From assembly GCF_010015445.1 (NCBI RefSeq), contig NC_053127.1, positions 6,574,004 through 6,638,003 on the forward strand: a DNA stretch of 64,000 nucleotides, written 5' to 3'. The number at the start of each line of letters is the position of its first letter. Positions within the stretch are counted from its first letter, which is position 1. The position numbers and the translations under genes are program-made. The notes beneath the pieces were generated by a model. It was given only the letters and a program-made list of their open reading frames with translations, was not told the origin of the DNA and did no database searches. This document shows positions 18,680 to 58,520 of the stretch, piece after piece. This DNA is from Perca fluviatilis (Eukaryota; Chordata; Actinopteri; Perciformes; Percidae).

Positions 18680-19393
18680 AGGTCCTATGATACGCTGCTT
18701 TTTTATGCTTTTATATAGACCTTAGTGGTCCCCTAATACTGTATCTGAAGTCTCTTTTATATAGGCCTTAGTGGTCCCCTAACACTGTATCTGAAGTCTC
18801 TTTTATATAGACCTTAGTGGTCCCCTAATTCTGTATCTGAAGTCTCTTTTATATAGACCTTAGTGGTCCCCTAATACTGTATCTGAAGTCTCTTTTATAT
18901 AGACCTTAGTGGTCCCCTAACACTGTATCTGAAGTCTCTTTCCTGAAATTCAGGTTTGGTGCAGAATTACAGCCACTAGAGCCAGTCCCATAATGAGCTT
19001 TCCTTAGGATGTGCCATTTCTGTGTCTGTAGCTTTAAATGCTATTGAGGAGGAGAGAGGGGGGGCAAGGTGGAGGGTGGGGGTGTGGCCTTGACCAACTG
19101 CCATGCGTCGCTTGTTTGAAAGCCATGATGTCTCTCTCTCATGGGCGGGCCAAATTCTCTGGGTGGGGAAAAGCAGAGAAAGGGGAGGTAACCTTGCTCC
19201 TTATGACCTCATAAGGAGAAGATTCCAGATCGGCCCATCTGAGCTTTCATTTTCTCAAAGGCAGAGCAGGATACCCAGGGCTCGGTTTACACCTATCACC
19301 ATTTCTAGCCACTGGGGGACCATAGGCAGGCTGGGGGAACTCATATTAATGTTAAAAAAACTCATAAAGTGAAATGTTCATGCCATGGGACCT
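18680..19393 (+). mobile_element. MITE-1 copy 2, TTAA target, 5-unit array
   Basis: It is flanked by TTAA (18676-18679 and 19394-19397). The left terminus AGGTCCTATGATACGCTG and the right terminus CATGCCATGGGACCT form inverted repeats. Following the left end is a 46-bp tandem array (18706-18942), then the conserved body with CTCATAAGGAGAAG. The 89-codon frame at 19103-19372 is found in every copy because the DNA is conserved. I see no reason to call it a gene. Confidence 0.8.
18706..18942 (+). repeat. 46-bp tandem repeat, about 5 units
   Basis: The unit contains CTTAGTGGTCCCCTAATACT and GTATCTGAAGTCTC and repeats at 46-bp spacing (18721, 18767, 18813, 18859, 18905). It is internal to MITE-1. 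Copies 3 and 4 have about nine units each. Confidence 0.9.
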
Positions 19394-32851: not shown

Positions 32852-34118
32852 TGTCATGGTTTTTCCTGTTTTATTTTGTTAAATGATTCCCCGTTTCCTT
32901 GTTTACTGTCTCTTGTGTTCTGTTGCGTTTTACCCTGTTTTCATCCTTGTTTTATGTTTCAGTTTCCTTTTTCCTGTTTTATTTTGTAGTCTGTTTTCTC
33001 CCATGTCATGTATTGTTTGACTTCCTGCCTTGTGTGTTTTCCCGCCTTTGTGATTGTCTGCCCCACCCTGATGTGTTTCACCTGCCCCTCGTTTCACCCT
33101 TGTTAACTTGGGTATTTAGTCTCTGTGTTGTCTTTGTCTGTTGTCAGATCATTAGGCTCGTTCAAGATGAACTGCGCCTCGCCTGTAAAGTAGACGAGAG
33201 CAGGCGGCAGCAGCAGGGGGCGGTGACAAAAGTCCGCTCTCAAGTCGGACAGTTTTCCAGCTGACTCCAGCAGCCTTCAGGCTGAACAGGAAGTGACAGA
33301 AACACGGTGGTCCGATTCCGATTTAATAAAATGTTATCAGACCCCTATATCAGCTCCTACACAGTCTCCAGTTGTTTTTATTATGACAAAGTAGCTGTCA
33401 AAATTCTCTACATGCGATCTGTTGCTGATTTTAATAAACAACAGACTGTAGGTGATCTGTGTAATCTGAACAGATTTAGTCTCTCTGACTTTTAAACACA
33501 ACTATCAGCCACACAACATGTGTTCTGTACAGAATAAGCTTTTAAATCAGACAAATCACAGTTAAAATCCCTCCGATTGAAAATCAATAAAAAGTTTATA
33601 TAAAACGTCATCATGTTGAGTCGATTCTGAACCAATCAGCTGTTTGATCAGCTGAGAGGCCGGCGTTTCCCAGCATGCCCTGGGTCCACCTGCGTCCGCC
33701 CTGGCTCTTGCAGTTGGTGAAAAGCCTGCGTACCTGCGCTCTCAGAACTGCGCGCCCCTCTGGTCTCGGCGATTATCGTTGCCCACGTGTGCATGACGTC
33801 AGAGCAAGTCGGGATCAAGTCGGACACAAATCTAACCGGCATGCATTGGGCGCCGATCGCCGGTGATCGATTCTGCGCAGATCTGGCTCATCTCGAACGA
33901 GCCTATTGTGTGTGTAAGCCTACCCCCTTTGTCTCGGTGTGCCAGTTTATTTTTGAATGCCTGGTCTTTTGGTTCCTCAACGATTTTTGGTACCTTTTTT
34001 GCCTACTTTCTTCAGGACTCCTTTTGTTGTATCGCTTCTTTATTTTATTAAATCCTCAATCTCACCACTGCCATGTTGTCTTTGCATTTTTGGGTCTGCC
34101 ATTTCCCTAATCGTAACA
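32852..34118 (+). mobile_element. Solo LTR of a Tf1/sushi-type element, split by insertion
   Basis: It begins TGTCATGGTTTTTCC and ends AATCGTAACA, with TTTGC (32847-32851) and TTTAC (34119-34123) as a 5-bp duplication with one mismatch. It contains TATTTAG at 33114-33120 and TTGTCAGATCATT at 33141-33153, the same promoter and primer-site arrangement as in the 54393-57308 LTRs. The 751-bp transposon at 33154-33904 interrupts it. Without the insertion the LTR is about 513 bp. No internal region follows, so it is a recombination product. A poly-A-type TTATTAAA occurs at 34044-34051. Confidence 0.7.
33154..33904. mobile_element. 751-bp DNA transposon nested in the LTR
   Basis: The termini AGGCTCGTTCAAGATGA and (inverted) AGGCTCGTTCGAGATGA differ at one base. 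ATT is duplicated (33151-33153, 33905-33907). Removing the element and one ATT restores the continuous word GATCATTGTGTGTG, typical of this LTR. A 3-bp duplication suggests PIF-Harbinger or CMC-type transposition, but ATT is not the usual TWA. Frames at 33648-33866 have no recognisable motif. Confidence 0.75.
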
Positions 34119-42788: not shown

Positions 42789-43567
42789 AGGTCCCATGAC
42801 ATAGTGCTCTTTGGATGCTTTTATATAGGCCTTAGTGGTCCCCTAATACTGTATCTGAAGTCTCTTTTATATAGACCTTGGTGGTCCCCTAATACTGTAT
42901 CTGAAGTCTCTTTTATAAAGACCTTAGTGGTCCCCTAATACTGTATCTGAAGTCTCTTTTATATAGGCCTTAGTGGTCCCCTAATACTGTATCTGAAGTC
43001 TCTTTTATATAGACCTTAGTGGTCCCCTAATACTGTATCTGAAGTCTCTTTTATATAGACCTTAGTGGTCCCCTAATACTGTATCTGAAGTCTCTTTTAT
43101 ATAGACCTTAGTGGTCCCCTAATACTGTATCTGAAGTCTCTTTTATATAGACCTTAGTGGTCCCCTAATACTGTATCTGAAGTCTCTTTTATATAGACCT
43201 TAGTGGTCCCCTAATACTGTATCTGAAGTCTCTTTCCCAAAATTCAGCCTTGGTGCAGAATTACAGCCACTACGAGCCAGTCCCACAATGAGCTTTCCTT
43301 AGACATGATGTCTCTCTCTCTCTCTCATGGGTTGGCCAAATTCTCTGGGCCAGCAAAGCAGAGAAAGGGGAGGTAACCTTGCTCCTTATGACCTCATAAG
43401 GAGAAGATTCCAGATCGGTCCATCTGAGCTTTCATTTTCTCAAAGACAGAGCAGGATACCCAGGGCTCGGTTTACACCTATCAGCATTTCTAGCCACTGG
43501 GGGACCATAGGCAGGCTGGGGGAACTCATATTAATATACCCTCAAAAGTGAAATTTTCATGCCACCT
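42789..43567 (+). mobile_element. MITE-1 copy 3, TTAA target, 9-unit array
   Basis: TTAA at 42785-42788 and 43568-43571. The left terminus is AGGTCCCATGACATAG, and the right end TTTTCATGCCACCT has lost GGGA. The 46-bp array fills about 42821-43236 with nine units. The body lacks part of the segment present in copy 2 (between CTTAG and ACATGATGTC, near 43300). The 74-codon frame (43327-43551) corresponds to that in the other copies. Confidence 0.85.
42821..43236 (+). repeat. 46-bp tandem repeat, 9 units
   Basis: CTTAGTGGTC or its CTTGG variant recurs at 42830 plus multiples of 46 up to 43198. The units are almost identical, which suggests recent homogenisation. Confidence 0.9.
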
Positions 43568-46290: not shown

Positions 46291-46490
46291 GTACCCTGGA
46301 AATCCAGAGTTCTCGCCAGAGCACTATTTGAATTTGCTGAGGTGTAGACCAGGCGGTCAAGCTCATTAACTATGCCCTTGTAGCCGCGCTGCACCAATCA
46401 CATGGGTGTATCTGATATAGGCGGGCCAGAGGTGAGCTAAACAGATGATGACAGCGCTGCGACGTCGAAGTCAATAGTAAACTTTGCAAG

Positions 46491-46964
46491 ATGGCTACGG
46501 ATGAACACTGGTTGTTGGAAACGGCGTTGGCCGCTACAATGAACAAGTTAGACTTGGCTTTTTATCTAAAAGAGGCACAGAAAACACCGCTCAAATCATT
46601 CCTTTGCAAGAAGGACGTTTTTGCTGTTTTGCTGACTGGATACGGCAAGAGTTTAATCTACCAGTTAGCTGTGCTGGTAGATAAGAGTTTAATCTACCAG
46701 TTAGCTCCGCTGGTAGCTAAGAGTTTAATCTACCATTTAGCTGTGCTGGTAGCTAAGAGTTTAATCTACCATTTAGCTGCGCTGGTAGCTAAGAGTTTAA
46801 TCTACCATTTAGCTGTGCTGGTAGCTAAGAGTTTAATCTACCAGTTAGCTCCGCTGGTAGCTAAGAGTTTAATCTACCATTTAGCTGTGCTGGTAGCTAA
46901 GAGTTTAATCTACCATTTAGCTGCGCTGGTAGCTAAGCATATGGGGTTTAGTGATTGGCCGTAG
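46491..46964 (+). pseudogene. RecQ-like helicase N-terminus with amplified Walker A segment
   Basis: The 157-codon frame starts MATDEHWLLETALAATMNK, continues through KSFLCKKDVFAVLLTGYGKS (a Q-motif-side strand plus Walker A, normally TGxGKS) and IYQLAPLVAK. In RecQ-family helicases the stretch after Walker A forms a helix leading to motif Ia. Here the 12-residue stretch beginning KSLIYQLA is repeated eight times in frame, then HMGFSDWP and a stop. Motifs Ia to VI are absent, so it cannot be an active helicase. It is an ATG-to-Walker-A fragment retained inside a small transposon. That the frame survived eight duplications without a stop may reflect selection, recency, or simply the 36-bp unit length. 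Confidence 0.6.
46647..46934 (+). repeat. 36-bp coding minisatellite, 8 units
   Basis: Units begin at 46647, 46683, 46719, 46755, 46791, 46827, 46863 and 46899 (AAGAGTTTAATCTACCA...). Variants CAGTTAGCTCCG, CATTTAGCTGTG and CATTTAGCTGCG alternate, which suggests duplication of multi-unit blocks. Confidence 0.95.
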
Positions 46965-48548: not shown

Positions 48549-49266
48549 AGGTCTCATGACATGGTGCTCTTTGGATGCTTTGATATAGACCTTAGTGGTC
48601 CCCTAATACTGTATCTGAAGTCTCTTTTATATAGACCTTAGTGGTCCCCTAATACTCTATCTGAAGTCTCTTTTATATAGACCTTAGTGGTCCCCTAATA
48701 CTGTATCTGAAGTCTCTTTTATATAGGCCTTAGTGGTCCCCTAATACTGTATCTGAAGTCTCTTTGATATAGACCTTAGTGGTCCCCTAATACTGTATCT
48801 GAAGTCTCTTTTATATAGGCCTTAGTGGTCCCCTAATACTGTATCTGAAGTCTCTTTTATATAGACCTTAGTGGTCCCCTAATACTGTATCTGAAGTCTC
48901 TTTTATATAGACCTTGGTGGTCCCCTAATACTGTATCTGAAGTCTCTTTTATATAGACCTTAGTGGTCCCCTAATACTGTATCTGAAGTCTCTTTCACGA
49001 AATTCAGCCTTGGTGCAGAATTACAGCCACTAGAGCCAGTCCCACAATGAGCTTTCCTTAGGATGTGCCATTTCTGTGTTTGTAGGAGGAGAAGATTCCA
49101 GATTGGCCCATCTGAGCTTTCATTTTCTCAAAGGCAGAGCAGGATACCCAGGACTCGGTTTACACCTATCACCATTTCTAGCCACTGGGGGACCATAGGC
49201 AGGGTGGGGGAACGCATATTAATGTTAAAAAACCTCATAAAGTGAAATTTTCATGCCATGGGACCT
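48549..49266 (+). mobile_element. MITE-1 copy 4, internal deletion
   Basis: The left terminus AGGTCTCATGACATGGTGC follows TTAT, and the right terminus CATGCCATGGGACCT precedes TTTA; both are one step from TTAA. The 46-bp array spans about 48579-48996 with nine units. The body jumps from TGTGTTTGTAGGAGG to AGAAGATTCC (near 49090), lacking about 140 bp present in copy 2. Confidence 0.85.
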
Positions 49267-52410: not shown

Positions 52411-53138
52411 CAGTGTTGGGAGTTACAGTAATGTATTCCTTTTTGCTGTAACGCTGTAATATAATCTTTTCTTTTCATTTGCGAGATGGACATACAGTAC
52501 ATAGGCCTAGATGGAGTTATTACGCTAGCGTTGAAGCAAGGTGCTGTTCTGTCACTTTTCCCTGGTCAGAGCCAGAACCAGAGACAGTATGGACAACATC
52601 TGTGTCCCAACAGGCAACGGTACGGACAACATCTGTGTCCCAACAGGCAACGGTACGGACAACATCTGTGTCCCAACAGGCAACGGTACGGACAACATCT
52701 GTGTCCCAACAGGCAACGGTACGGACAACATCTGTGTCCCAACAGGCAACGGTACGGACAACATCTGTGTCCTAACAGGCAACGGTACGGACAACATCTG
52801 TGTCCTAACAGGCAACGGTACGGACAACATCTGTGTCTCAACAGGCAACGGTACGGACAACATCTGTGTCTCAACAGGTAATGATACCGACAACATCTGT
52901 GTCCCAACAGGCAACGGTACGGACAACATCTGTGTCCCAAGGTACATTAGCGTGGACAGCTGTATGTCCGAGCAACTGACAGATATAGACATAACTCAAA
53001 CGTAACTCAAGAGTAATGCAAACGTGTAAAGCATTACAATTCAGAGGCAGTAATATTGTACTATAACTAATTACTCTCAAATGACAGTAACTAGTAATCT
53101 ATAACTATTACATTTTGGAAGTAACTTGCCCAACACTG
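52411..53138. mobile_element. 728-bp hAT MITE with perfect 8-bp TSD and minisatellite
   Basis: TTACTCTG lies at 52403-52410 and 53139-53146. The termini CAGTGTTGGG...CCCAACACTG are perfect over 10 bp, and subterminal AGTTAC/GTAACT words follow on both sides. This terminus is one of the commonest hAT-type MITE ends in fish. The interior between about 52585 and 52945 is replaced by a 33-bp tandem array. Frames of up to 154 codons (52479-53005 plus, 52552-52992 minus) arise because 33 is divisible by three. Confidence 0.9.
52591..52940 (+). repeat. 33-bp minisatellite, 10.6 units
   Basis: Units start at 52591 plus multiples of 33 (GGACAACATCTGTGTC...). All but one are near-identical; the unit around 52870-52890 reads GGTAATGATACC. 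C/T variants at TGTCCCAA, TGTCCTAA and TGTCTCAA are grouped in adjacent units. Confidence 0.95.
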
Positions 53139-54387: not shown

Positions 54388-54392
54388 GTCAA

Positions 54393-54803
54393 TGTCAGGT
54401 GTAGCAGGGAGGAGTAGGGAATAGTGGACCCAAAATGCAGAGGCAGGCAGGCAGGAGAATGTAGAGGTGGAGGGTTTAATAGTCCATAAAAAACAAGAGC
54501 AAAAAACCGGACACCGGGAGACGCGACAGGAACACACAAACACAAACAATGATCTGACCCTGGACAAGGGGAACACCAAGACTAAATACACAGACTAAAG
54601 AGATAACACAAGACAGGTGACACAAGGGCTGGGAAACAGGTGAAACACATTAGGCAGGGCAGAGCAATCAACAAAAGGAGGGAAACACAAGACAGGAAGT
54701 AAAGTGGACAAGACAAGACAGAAAACCAGAGACTTCAAAATAAAACAGGAAACAGAGCACAAAACAGACCACCAAAATAAGACAAGACACCAAAACCATA
54801 ACA
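54393..54803 (-). repeat. 3' LTR (sense minus)
   Basis: In sense orientation it begins TGTTATGGTTTTGGTGTC and ends CTGCTACACCTGACA. It holds the same promoter, primer and poly-A words as the other LTR. The 5'-side flank in sense is the polypurine-like CTTGGGGGTAC (54804-54814). Confidence 0.9.
54475..54480 (-). terminator. Poly-A signal ATTAAA in the 3' LTR
   Basis: The sense strand reads GGACTATTAAACCCTCC. ATTAAA is the commonest variant of the polyadenylation hexamer. It lies about 75 bp downstream of the inferred RNA start word, so it would define the R/U5 boundary region. Confidence 0.5.
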
Positions 54804-54911
54804 GTACCCCCAAGGGACAGATCCCAGATGTCCAAAAAAACAAGAAAGGAGCAAAAGACAAACCAGGGAGGGAGGAGGGGGCCCGGAGGAGGGACGACCC
54901 AAAAAGTCAAA

Positions 54912-55440
54912 CTAAATCAACCCCGGAGGGGCGAGGAAGGCACCGGAGACACTCGGGGAAAGGGAAACAGAGAGAGGCCAGAGGGAAAAGAGAGTCCTGG
55001 GGCACGGGGAACAGGGAGTCCAGGAGCACAGGGAACAGAGAGTCCCGGGGGCACGGGGAAACACAGAGCACTGGGGGCACAGGGGGCCACAGAGAAGGCA
55101 GAATCCCACAGGCGACCGGCGACGAAGGCAGGATGCTTCAGGCGGCCGGCGACGAAGGCAGAACCCCTCAGACGGCCGAACAGAACGGTGAGGGTTCGTA
55201 GGAGGCCGTCTGCAACGGCGAATCCCCTCAGGAGGACGAACAGGACGGGGAAGTCTCTCAGGCGGCCGGCGTCGAATGCTATACCCCTCTGGCGGCCGGC
55301 GGCGAAGGCGATATCCCTCTGGAGGCCGGTGGCGAAGGAGAGTCCCCTCTGGAGGCCGTCGGCGAAGGCGATACCCCTCAGGAGGCCGGCGGCGAAGGCG
55401 ATACCCCTCAGGAGGCCGGCGGCGAAGGCGATACCCCTCA
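54912..55440 (-). pseudogene. Out-of-frame continuation of the repetitive ORF
   Basis: Directly downstream, in the sense direction, of the stop that ends the 479-residue frame, the same strand stays open to a stop at 54912. Its codon register carries on the PEG-x-RLRRRP decapeptide repeats of 55496-55585. The two frames are separated by an irregular 55-bp unit (55441-55495) that is 5 bp short of two 30-bp units. The C-terminal part (54912-55109) is Cys/Pro-rich. It is either a single-copy frameshift or a recoding site. Confidence 0.45.
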
Positions 55441-55585
55441 GGAGGCCGGCGGCGAAGCGCGGCGCCTCAGGCCGGGCGCGAGGCGATACCCCTCAGGCGG
55501 CCGGCGGCGAAGGCGATACCCCTCAGGCGGCCGGCGGCGAAGGCCGAACCCCTCTGGCGGCCGGCGGCGAAGGCCGAACCCCTCA
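55111..55585 (-). repeat. 30-bp coding minisatellite
   Basis: Eleven regular units run from 55111 to 55440, then the irregular 55-bp segment, then three units at 55496-55585. The plus-strand consensus is GGAGGCCGGCGGCGAAGGCG followed by ATACCCCTCA. On the sense strand each unit codes for a basic decapeptide of the type PEGYRLRRRP. Confidence 0.95.
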
Positions 55586-56877
55586 GGAGACTTGGCAGGC
55601 CAATGAAGGCTAAAACCCTCCGAGGGCCGGGCAAGCAACGGGTCAGCTGAGCTGGAGCCAGGCGAAGAGTCAGCGGGGCTGGAGCCAGGCGAAGAGTCAG
55701 CGGAGCTGGAGCCAGGCGAAGAGTCAGCGGGGCTGGAGCCAGGCGAAGAGTCAGCGGGGCTGGAGCCAGGCGAAGAGTCAGCGGGGCTGGAGCCAGGCGA
55801 AGAGTCAGCGGGGCTGGAGCCAGAGGGACCGCCAGCTAGTGGGAAATCAGGGGGGTTGCTAGCTAGCCTGGACGCTGGGGAGTTGCTAGCTGGCCTGGAC
55901 TCTGGGGAGATGCTAGCTGGCCTGGACTCTGGGGAGATGCTAGCTGGCCTGGACTCTGGGGAGATGCTAGCTGGCCTGGACTCTGGGGAGATGCTAGCTG
56001 GCCTGGACTCTGGGGAGATGCTAGCTGGCCTGGACTCAGGGGAGATGCTAGCTGGCCTGGACTCCGGGGAGATGCTAGCTGGCCTGGACTCCGGGGAGAT
56101 GCTAGCTGGCCTGGACTCCGGGGAGATGCTAGCTGGCCTGGACTCCGGGGAGATGCTAGCTGGCCTGGACTCCGGGGAGATGCTAGCTGGCCTGGACTCA
56201 GGGGAGATGCTAGCTGGCCTGGACTCAGGGGAGCTGCTAGCTAGCCTAGACTCAGGGGAGCTGCTAGCTAGCCTAGACTCAGGGGAGCTGCTAGCTAGCC
56301 TAGACTCAGGGGAGCTGCTAGCTAGCCTGGATTCAGGGGAGCTGCTAGCTAGCCTAGACTCAGGGGAGCTGCAACACGGCCCAGGGTCAGGAGAGCAGCA
56401 CGTCAACCCCGGGCCAGCAGAACTGCACGTCAGCTCGGGAACAGAAGGGCCGCACGTCAGCTCGGGAACAGAAGGGTTGCACGTCAGCTCGGGAACAGAA
56501 GGGTTGCACGTCAGCTCGGGAACAGAGGTCAACAGGGGTGCCGACAAGGCACAAGGGGCAGGAGCAGGCCCGACCACAGACAGGACACGGGGACCAGGAG
56601 TCGGCTCGTGGCCACTGGTAGGCCTGGGAACACCAGACAGCACTGGGAAAGTCACAGAGCGAGGTTCAGGCTCACCGTTAGGAGACTCCAGGAAGTCTTG
56701 AATCCAGTCTGGGAGGGAGCTCCGGAGCCAGGGATGAGCGGAGGCGTCTCGGCGAGCAGCCTGGAGAACTGCCTCCTTGGCCTTCCGACCTCTGGTGAAC
56801 CTCCACTCCCCAACAGCACAAATAAGCCTGCAGGTGAGGTCACTGAGGTCGTATTCCATTGTCTCTGCTGGGTCCAA
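55438..56877 (-). CDS. 479-residue repetitive protein of the LTR element
   Basis: The frame opens at a TTG (56877) in the context TTGGACCCAGCAGAG. An in-frame ATG follows at residue 7. Related elements in memory have ATG at the first position, so the TTG may be a lost start. Residues 1-65 are non-repetitive and probably helical (CRLICAVGEWRFTRGRKAKE). Residues 65-115 are Pro-rich. Then come arrays of nonapeptides: about five SVPELTCNP-type units, nineteen SPESRxASx units, six GSSPADSSP units, and decapeptides of the PEGYRLRRRP type. The chain changes from Ser/Pro/Glu-rich to Arg-rich. There is no CCHC knuckle, aspartic protease or polymerase motif. By position it replaces gag. A role as a structural or nucleic-acid-binding Gag-like protein is inference. 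The frame ends at a stop after a 5-bp shift in the 30-bp array. Confidence 0.65.
   Translation of the reverse strand: MDPAETMEYDLSDLTCRLICAVGEWRFTRGRKAKEAVLQAARRDASAHPWLRSSLPDWIQDFLESPNGEPEPRSVTFPVLSGVPRPTSGHEPTPGPRVLSVVGPAPAPCALSAPLLTSVPELTCNPSVPELTCNPSVPELTCGPSVPELTCSSAGPGLTCCSPDPGPCCSSPESRLASSSPESRLASSSPESRLASSSPESRLASSSPESRLASSSPESRPASISPESRPASISPESRPASISPESRPASISPESRPASISPESRPASISPESRPASISPESRPASISPESRPASISPESRPASISPESRPASISPESRPASISPESRPASNSPASRLASNPPDFPLAGGPSGSSPADSSPGSSPADSSPGSSPADSSPGSSPADSSPGSSSADSSPGSSPADSSPGSSSADPLLARPSEGFSLHWPAKSPEGFGLRRRPPEGFGLRRRPPEGYRLRRRPPEGYRLAPGLRRRASPPAS
55651..55827 (-). repeat. 27-bp coding minisatellite a, 6.5 units
   Basis: Unit starts at 55651 plus multiples of 27 to 55813 (plus strand GCTGGAGCCAGGCGAAGAG...). 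It encodes GSSPADSSP nonapeptides on the minus strand. Confidence 0.95.
55858..56370 (-). repeat. 27-bp coding minisatellite b, 19 units
   Basis: Unit starts at 55858 plus multiples of 27 to 56344 (plus strand GCTAGCTGGCCTGGACTC...). Sense nonapeptides are SPESRPASI (12 copies), SPESRLASS (5) and two variants. Identical variants are clustered, consistent with recent block expansion. Confidence 0.95.
56399..56533 (-). repeat. 27-bp coding minisatellite c, 5 units
   Basis: CACGTCA recurs at 56399, 56426, 56453, 56480 and 56507. Sense units are SVPELTCNP-like. The shared 27-bp period with arrays a and b suggests common descent or a common 9-residue structural constraint. Confidence 0.9.
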
Positions 56878-56880
56878 GGT

Positions 56881-56892
56881 GGTCAGATCATT
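56881..56892 (-). promoter_or_regulatory. Self-priming primer-binding site
   Basis: The sense strand AATGATCTGACC begins one base after the upstream LTR. It is the exact reverse complement of GGTCAGATCATT inside each LTR (sense 57064-57053 and 54559-54548). No TGG-starting tRNA-complementary site is present here. In Tf1 of fission yeast the RNA's own 5' end folds onto such a site to prime minus-strand synthesis, and sushi-group elements have been proposed to do the same. Confidence 0.75.
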
Positions 56893-56893
56893 A

Positions 56894-57308
56894 TGTCAGG
56901 TGTAGCAGGGAGGAGTAGGGAATAGTGGACCCAAAATGCAGAGGCAGGCAGGCAGGCAGGAGAATGTAGAGGTGGAGGGTTTAATAGTCCATAAAAAACA
57001 AGAGCAAAAAACCGGACACCGGGAGACGCGACAGGAACACACAAACACAAACAATGATCTGACCCTGGACAAGGGGAACACCAAGACTAAATACACAGAC
57101 TAAAGAGATAACACAAGACAGGTGACACAAGGGCTGGGAAACAGGTGAAACACATTAGGCAGAGCAGAGCAATCAACAAAAGGAGGGAAACACAAGACAG
57201 GAAGTAAAGTGGACAAGACAAGACAGAAAACCAGAGACTTCAAAATAAAACAGGAAACAGAGCACAAAACAGACCACCAAAATAAGACAAGACACCAAAA
57301 CCATAACA
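56894..57308 (-). repeat. 5' LTR (sense minus), promoter-bearing
   Basis: TATTTAG (sense 57093-57087) lies 29 bp before the first G of GGTCAGATCATT (57064), fitting a TATA-box-to-start distance. One additional GGCA unit distinguishes it from the 3' LTR. Confidence 0.9.
57053..57064 (-). promoter_or_regulatory. Inferred RNA 5' end / self-primer word
   Basis: The sense strand GGTCAGATCATT is complementary over 12 nt to the primer-binding site 160 bp downstream in the transcript. The word GTCAGATCATT is also kept in the LTR at 33143-33153, and as GTCCGATCATT at about 57889-57899, although the surrounding LTR sequence has diverged. Confidence 0.65.
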
Positions 57309-57585
57309 GTCAAAGATAGGCCTAAACAATGACAATTATAAAAGAGGCATACACACTGACTGTTGTTAAGAAGGCACATTGATTATTGAACACAGTGGAA
57401 GCTGTTTTCATACCACAAGCCTTTATTAACTGTGATGTACTTTTTTTAAATGGTTCACCTATTTAATGTGGGTGATAACCAATAATCTTACCCAGTCCCA
57501 TATATGCAAAAGAACAGTAACAAAAAAACACTGGGATGCTCACACAATATTTGTAGAACAGTAACCTGTCAGAGTTGTGGTTTTC

Positions 57586-58520
57586 AGTTGTGGTTTTTCC
57601 TCTTATTCATTCCCTGTTGTGCTTGTTTCCCTGCCATTTGCTCACCGTTTCCTGTTTTGCAGTATTGTTCTCTGTTTAGATTTTCCCAGTGCCATTCTTG
57701 TGTAGGTTTTCATGTTTCAGTTTCCTGTTTTATTTTGTAGCCTCCGTTTCTCCTGTGTCAGGTCTTGTTTGACTTCCTGACTTGTGTGTTTTCCCGCATT
57801 TGTGATTGTCCGCCCCCGCCATGATGTGTTCCACCTGTTCATCAGCCCTCTTGTCACCTGTCCCTCGTTACCTTGTATTTTGTCTGTTGTCCGATCATTG
57901 TCATTATGTGTGTTCTTTCCTGCGTCTATCCCTTGGTCTTACTCTAGCCCCGTTTACACAAAGGGAAGACGCAGACGGTTTGGCCTCTCATTTACACGAA
58001 AACCCCGTTTTTATCACAGAAAACGATTATTTCTAAACACTCCGGCCAAAGTGGAGATTTTGGAAAACCTTGTTTGCACGTTTGCATGTAAACTGAGACA
58101 AACGGAGGTTTAGGCAGCCGAGAGAGAGAAAGAGGAAGTGATTGGTTGCTGTTGTTGCTATTGTCGGGATTCTGATTGGCTAACGTGGGCTTGAGCTTCT
58201 CGTTACACCGCCACCTACAGGTCTGGCATGCTCTTGACGGCATTGACGGCATATATACACAGGTACATATAAACGAACACTTTTCTGAAAACTGAGAGGT
58301 TGAAATGTCCGTTTATGAAAATAGCCGGCCACGTGTAAACGTAGCATCTATGTAATTTTATTCCTACTACCAGATTTTGACCTGCTTGCTGCAGGACACC
58401 TTTAGATTGTAAGTTGTTTTATTTTATTTTTAATAAACCTTCTAAACTGTCCGATTGCCTTCTCGTCTCTAGGGCTGTCCGGGGCTCAGCCTACCCTCTT
58501 CTATGTCATCAGGGGACACT
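57586..58520 (+). mobile_element. Old sushi-type LTR remnant, interrupted
   Basis: TGTGGTTTTTCC, CATGTTTCAGTTTCC, TGTTTTATTTTGTAG, TTTGACTTCCTG, TGTGTGTTTTCCCGC and TTGTCCGATCATTGTC follow the same order as the solo LTR at 32852-34118. After the MITE at 57953-58345 an AT-rich TTAATAAACCTTCTAAACTG resumes. The ends are uncertain and no duplication was found. It lies only 280 bp from the intact element but in opposite orientation. Confidence 0.55.
57953..58345. mobile_element. Harbinger-like MITE nested in the LTR remnant
   Basis: The left side AGCCCCGTTTACACAAAGG and the inverted right side GATGCTACGTTTACACGTGG match the 25512-25744 family, including the internal GACGGCATATATACACxGGTAC. CTA words flank both ends. 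The target duplication is not cleanly defined. Confidence 0.6.

Follow-up and report, generated by a model that had tools for sequence, protein, structure and literature searches.

A complete LTR retrotransposon of 2,916 bp lies on the minus strand at positions 54393-57308 of the 64-kb window (the whole stretch of DNA that was analysed). It has paired LTRs of 411 and 415 bp with TG...CA ends, flanked on both sides by a target-site duplication, GTCAA, as is characteristic of LTR retrotransposons. These features place the limits of the element exactly where the first-pass annotation had drawn them. The internal region of approximately 2.1 kb consists mostly of tandem arrays, several of which lie within an open reading frame of 473 codons; neither this ORF nor the minus-strand orientation is mentioned in the first-pass annotation. 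The features that define the element are as follows.

54388..54392, no strand: target-site duplication GTCAA, left copy
54393..54803, minus strand: 3' LTR, 411 bp
54804..54818, minus strand: presumed plus-strand primer region GTCCCTTGGGGGTAC, with a short G tract, adjoining the 3' LTR
54983..55068, minus strand: 24-bp tandem array, irregular, beyond the ORF, with an overlapping row of period 26
55094..55587, minus strand: 30-bp tandem array with one spacing of 55 bp
55438..56859, minus strand: ORF of 473 codons, ATG context ACAATGG; a low-confidence model has three helices at residues 7-58, the rest being mostly repeats
55642..55823, minus strand: 27-bp tandem array, GSSPADSSP units
55847..56372, minus strand: 27-bp tandem array, ISPESRPAS units
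56424..56526, minus strand: 27-bp tandem array, SVPELTCNP units
56894..57308, minus strand: 5' LTR, 415 bp
56980..56985, minus strand: possible polyadenylation signal ATTAAA, LTR position 324
57309..57313, no strand: target-site duplication GTCAA, right copy

Judged from the LTRs, which are identical except for one substitution and one 4-bp gap, and from the intact duplication, the insertion is young. If a few times 1e-9 substitutions per site and year is taken as the neutral rate, its age would be, as a rough figure, some hundred thousand years.

Tandem repeats are found in other parts of the window as well. A 46-bp unit forms three separate arrays, at 18708-18941, 42818-43235, and 48578-48995, with 5.1, 9.1, and 9.1 copies and 96-98% matches. 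At 52587-52940, a 33-bp array of 10.7 copies lies within long open frames of both strands. On the plus strand, the open frame at 46452-46961, which shows a weak match to DEAD-box helicases (E 0.00042, 20.5 bits, cut-off 26), enters a 36-bp tandem array located at 46647-46937.

No polymerase was found in the element with Pfam, in agreement with the initial reading. Eight minus-strand stretches of the element (seven distinct) were scanned without a match above the cut-off, and the sole sub-threshold match, to PF14928 (E 0.34-0.36), falls in the repeats. The scan of the remaining window covered nine ORFs. From a young insertion that lacks pol and carries a target duplication, we infer, as the natural explanation, that the element was mobilized in trans. 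A different origin for such a structure would be a single defective copy, that is, an autonomous sushi-type element that has lost gag-pol and does not belong to a family moving in this form. The window contains one full copy, in which the primer-binding site (PBS) and leader are kept and the frame of the ORF is broken, as would be expected of such a remnant. Nevertheless, we consider this origin improbable: LTRs one substitution apart and an intact duplication mark a young insertion, tandem arrays make up most of the internal sequence, and the scanned stretches hold no remnant of pol.

We next consider whether selection maintains the ORF as the gene of an accessory or Gag-like protein, which would make the element semi-autonomous rather than a pure RNA parasite. 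The 473 open codons, the start context, and main array units of 27, 27, 27, 30, and 24 bp are compatible with this idea. Furthermore, a model of the product contains a block at residues 11-60, mostly helices, with pLDDT values of 71-80. Several observations point the other way. The predicted leader contains two short upstream ATG frames ahead of the ORF, frames on the plus strand are open too, the longest running 364 codons between stops, and one overlapping array row has a period of 26. A coding test on the repeat units, tried as support for the ORF, was set aside for this purpose because in none of the six sets did the ORF frame alone have the highest proportion of synonymous changes. For the 27-bp array with 19 units, an antisense frame scores equally (4/8 each), and the remaining sets have another frame ahead of the ORF frame. 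This result speaks weakly against selection on the ORF.

Homology searches gave no further hold on the product. A protein search with residues 1-130 returned 738 candidates, none at E 0.001, from collections that may omit the host group, and no match to the first 120 residues was found among PDB sequences. Fold searches yielded 29 matches to E 10 in the PDB and 90 in BFVD, again none at E 0.001. The absence of a fold match means little, since the model was built without an alignment and has a mean pLDDT of 57. Overall, the evidence that the ORF is a functional gene is weak, and a selected accessory or Gag-like protein seems rather unlikely. The spacing of 55 bp in the 30-bp array is not a multiple of 3, and the reading frame therefore changes there; if translated, the product would be a repeat-rich protein whose frame is lost in this copy at one array.

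The element also carries a putative priming signal of its own. The features concerned are the following.

54548..54559, minus strand: self-primer word GGTCAGATCATT, 3' LTR copy
56869..56876, minus strand: TGGACCCA, lying 3' of the PBS and able to pair with the U5 word TGGGTCCA (within chance)
56881..56892, minus strand: primer-binding site AATGATCTGACC, starting one base (T) past the 5' LTR end CCTGACA
56926..56933, minus strand: U5 word TGGGTCCA
57053..57064, minus strand: self-primer word GGTCAGATCATT, where the RNA is predicted to begin, LTR position 245
57087..57093, minus strand: TATA-like box TATTTAG, LTR position 216

The PBS beside the 5' LTR and the word within the LTR are perfectly complementary, over exactly 12 nt, and the start-to-start distance from TATTTAG to the word is 29 bp; both statements of the first-pass annotation are borne out. 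To estimate how readily such a match arises by chance, two controls are available. When the LTR was shuffled 20,000 times with its dinucleotides kept, the longest complement was 11 nt, obtained once. In the second and stricter control, on real sequence, every window position outside the element was taken on both strands, with the 415 nt upstream treated as the 'LTR'. Here, a complement of 12 nt or longer occurs at 560 of 121,218 overlapping positions (0.46%), and 784 matches of 11 or more were found, with a GT microsatellite among the matches listed. A 12-nt complement is thus not very rare in real sequence, which counts against the self-priming reading. On the sequence evidence, a coincidence of word and PBS still appears unlikely, because the PBS sits at the end of the LTR and the word lies at a plausible distance from a TATA-like box.

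If the LTR match were a coincidence, a tRNA or tRNA fragment would be the expected primer. The frequency of local complements of 12 or more in the window (see above) leaves room for this explanation, as does the scope of the tRNA search, which was limited to the window and run with ARAGORN in its bacterial setting. That search found no tRNA genes. By eye, TGG first starts at nt 18 past the LTR, with none in the 17 nt before, and the 3' end of the tRNA that this site would require has a G at the place where C61 is expected. In addition, the match lies at a plausible distance from the start site, and both word and distance are kept in a diverged LTR. We therefore regard tRNA priming as very unlikely. 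The earlier statement that no tRNA-type site is present holds for these 17 nt and, with regard to tRNA genes, for the window.

The diverged LTR is one of two relatives that were identified in the window by BLAST with the LTR.

32852..34118, plus strand: related, apparently solo LTR, TGTCATGG...CGTAACA, with an insert from about 33154
about 57567..58515, plus strand: older fragment of a related LTR, split by an insert, with the word TGTCCGATCATTG at 57888 (limits by eye)

The solo LTR is located 20 kb from the element, and its flanks, TTTGC and TTTAC, are alike at four of five bases. BLAST aligns it to the element LTR with 69% identity over 244 columns, and a local alignment of the first part gives 153 identical bases in 182 ungapped columns. 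In the solo LTR, the distance from the first base of TATTTAG to GTCAGATCATT is exactly 30 bp, the same as in the element. Site, word, TATA distance, and the recurrence of word and distance in this diverged copy together support the self-priming anatomy that had been proposed. The conservation of the word fits a function and would not be special by itself, because the two LTRs have five identical runs of at least 8 bases in common, the word among them, and two of these runs exceed it in length. The first primer base is G in the element and T in both relatives, and the element PBS has the matching C; as a sign of pairing under constraint, this correspondence is only suggestive.

In neither relative was an internal region with a PBS found, and no second full copy or partner element was seen within the window. 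Both LTRs are interrupted by other sequences. The insert in the solo LTR, at 33154-33903 (right end approximate), follows directly after the primer word, has inverted ends AGGCTCGTTC, and looks like a DNA transposon. The insert in the older fragment spans approximately 57952-58340, and its ends contain GTTTACAC in inverted orientation. Outside the window, a search with the PBS pattern gave at least 238 loci (239 sites), comprising 119 stretches in viral contigs and at least 119 in prokaryote genomes. In the 238 loci, GTCAGATCAT is absent from the upstream sequence (up to 700 nt), and BLAST with the LTR finds no match; they were therefore rejected as related elements and, as chance matches, used as a control. 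The combined pattern of TATA-like box and word was not found in viral contigs.

The predicted leader RNA was folded with different lengths of internal sequence. With 13, 25, or 40 nt, 11 of the 12 primer:PBS pairs have probabilities of 0.8-1.0 and the twelfth has 0.49, whereas with 60 nt the probability of this pairing is at most 0.31 and a competing structure without it becomes the best fold. The primer:PBS helix of the self-priming RNA architecture claimed earlier dominates in the three shorter leaders. According to PMC10085805, the Tf1 leader adopts a 'pretzel' with two further helices besides primer:PBS. Candidate equivalents in the element are TGGGTCCA:TGGACCCA and a second helix, formed at the end of the LTR; neither beats shuffled sequences. 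One side helix was matched in 632 of 5000 shuffles of the LTR and in 513 of 5000 shuffles of the downstream sequence, the other in 174 of 500. Of the three duplexes of a pretzel, the central one is possible, weakened at 60 nt of internal sequence, and the side duplexes were dropped as evidence, being within the range of the shuffles. Rfam gave no matches at gathering score.

Among the closest parallels to this arrangement are Tf1 and Tf2 of Schizosaccharomyces pombe, where a PBS beside the 5' LTR is complementary to the RNA 5' end. In Tf1, as described in PMC7175516, pairing with the PBS involves the first 11 bases of the RNA, and the RNase H cut falls between bases 11 and 12. Tf1 is a complete element of the Ty3/gypsy type in which priming was shown experimentally, while in the present element no pol was found and the start site is predicted. 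The match comprises 11 bases in Tf1 and 12 nt here, where the side helices stay within chance. PMC6317226, PMC10085805, and PMC7175516 ascribe self-priming to the Tf1/sushi group, and the first two refer to Butler et al. 2001 for Sushi-ichi and other vertebrate members. These vertebrate elements share with ours the Sushi-clade LTR end motifs and, by prediction, the mode of priming, and differ from it in being chromoviruses with gag-pol, in contrast to an element with no detected pol. Judging from the character of the sequence, the host of the present element is probably a fish. In Table 3 of PMC3601003, the Sushi motifs are TGTYANR and CNTNACA. The element LTR ends, TGTTATG and CCTGACA, fit these motifs, which are short, and its 5' end also fits the rGmr1 motif of the same source.

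The proposed link to sushi elements draws on the LTR ends and the predicted priming mode; no pol sequence was found from which a place in a tree could be derived. A Gag-Pol with chromodomain, which characterizes the Tf1/sushi group, was not recovered from the eight minus-strand stretches, which are without a Pfam match above the cut-off. Since the group is defined by pol and none was found, we do not assign the element to it. It would work like Tf1/sushi elements without being a proven member, and probably depends on one of them.

Two other kinds of element help to delimit the comparison. Self-priming is not seen in all relatives: in PMC2864245, no site for a tRNA or for self-priming could be identified in SM-Tcn1, which belongs to the Tcn1 clade and comes from a non-seed plant. 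TRIM elements, such as biv-TRIM of bivalves, resemble the present element in being non-autonomous LTR elements that are thought to depend on a partner. In PMC6934838, TRIMs are smaller than 1 kb with terminal repeats of 100-250 bp, and no clear priming mechanism is proposed for biv-TRIM. The element described here, at 2.9 kb and with LTRs of 411-415 bp, lies outside these sizes, and it has in addition a self-primer match and an ORF.

Taken together, the observations make it likely that this is a non-autonomous, Tf1/sushi-like LTR element that uses the 5' end of its own RNA as primer and is copied in trans. Transcription would start at GGTCAGATCATT, about 30 bp past TATTTAG, and the first 12 nt of the RNA would pair with the site just beyond the 5' LTR. 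A reverse transcriptase acting in trans may then cut past the paired stretch with its RNase H, and the released 12-mer would prime minus-strand DNA. The copy of the word in the 3' LTR could restore the sequence during strand transfer, and the integrase of the donor would produce the 5-bp duplication. The helper is presumably an autonomous sushi-type element sharing the LTR.

We suggest more tentatively the existence of a pol-less, self-primed LTR family, probably in fish, whose members encode a repeat-rich protein of their own and prey on sushi elements. The surprise is moderate, because self-priming is established in the Tf1/sushi group; the novelty lies in finding it together with the absence of a detected pol. 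Among the titles and abstract openings listed in a search of mainly open-access literature, none describes a self-primed non-autonomous LTR element from fish. If such a family exists, its RNA would prime itself in cis and obtain all enzymes in trans, and the helper reverse transcriptase and RNase H would have to accept a fold-back leader on a foreign RNA. A compact element with the RNA signals and without the enzyme would be a natural minimal substrate, showing which parts of the RNA a helper needs. With such an element, self-priming outside fission yeast would become directly testable in a helper-plus-reporter system.
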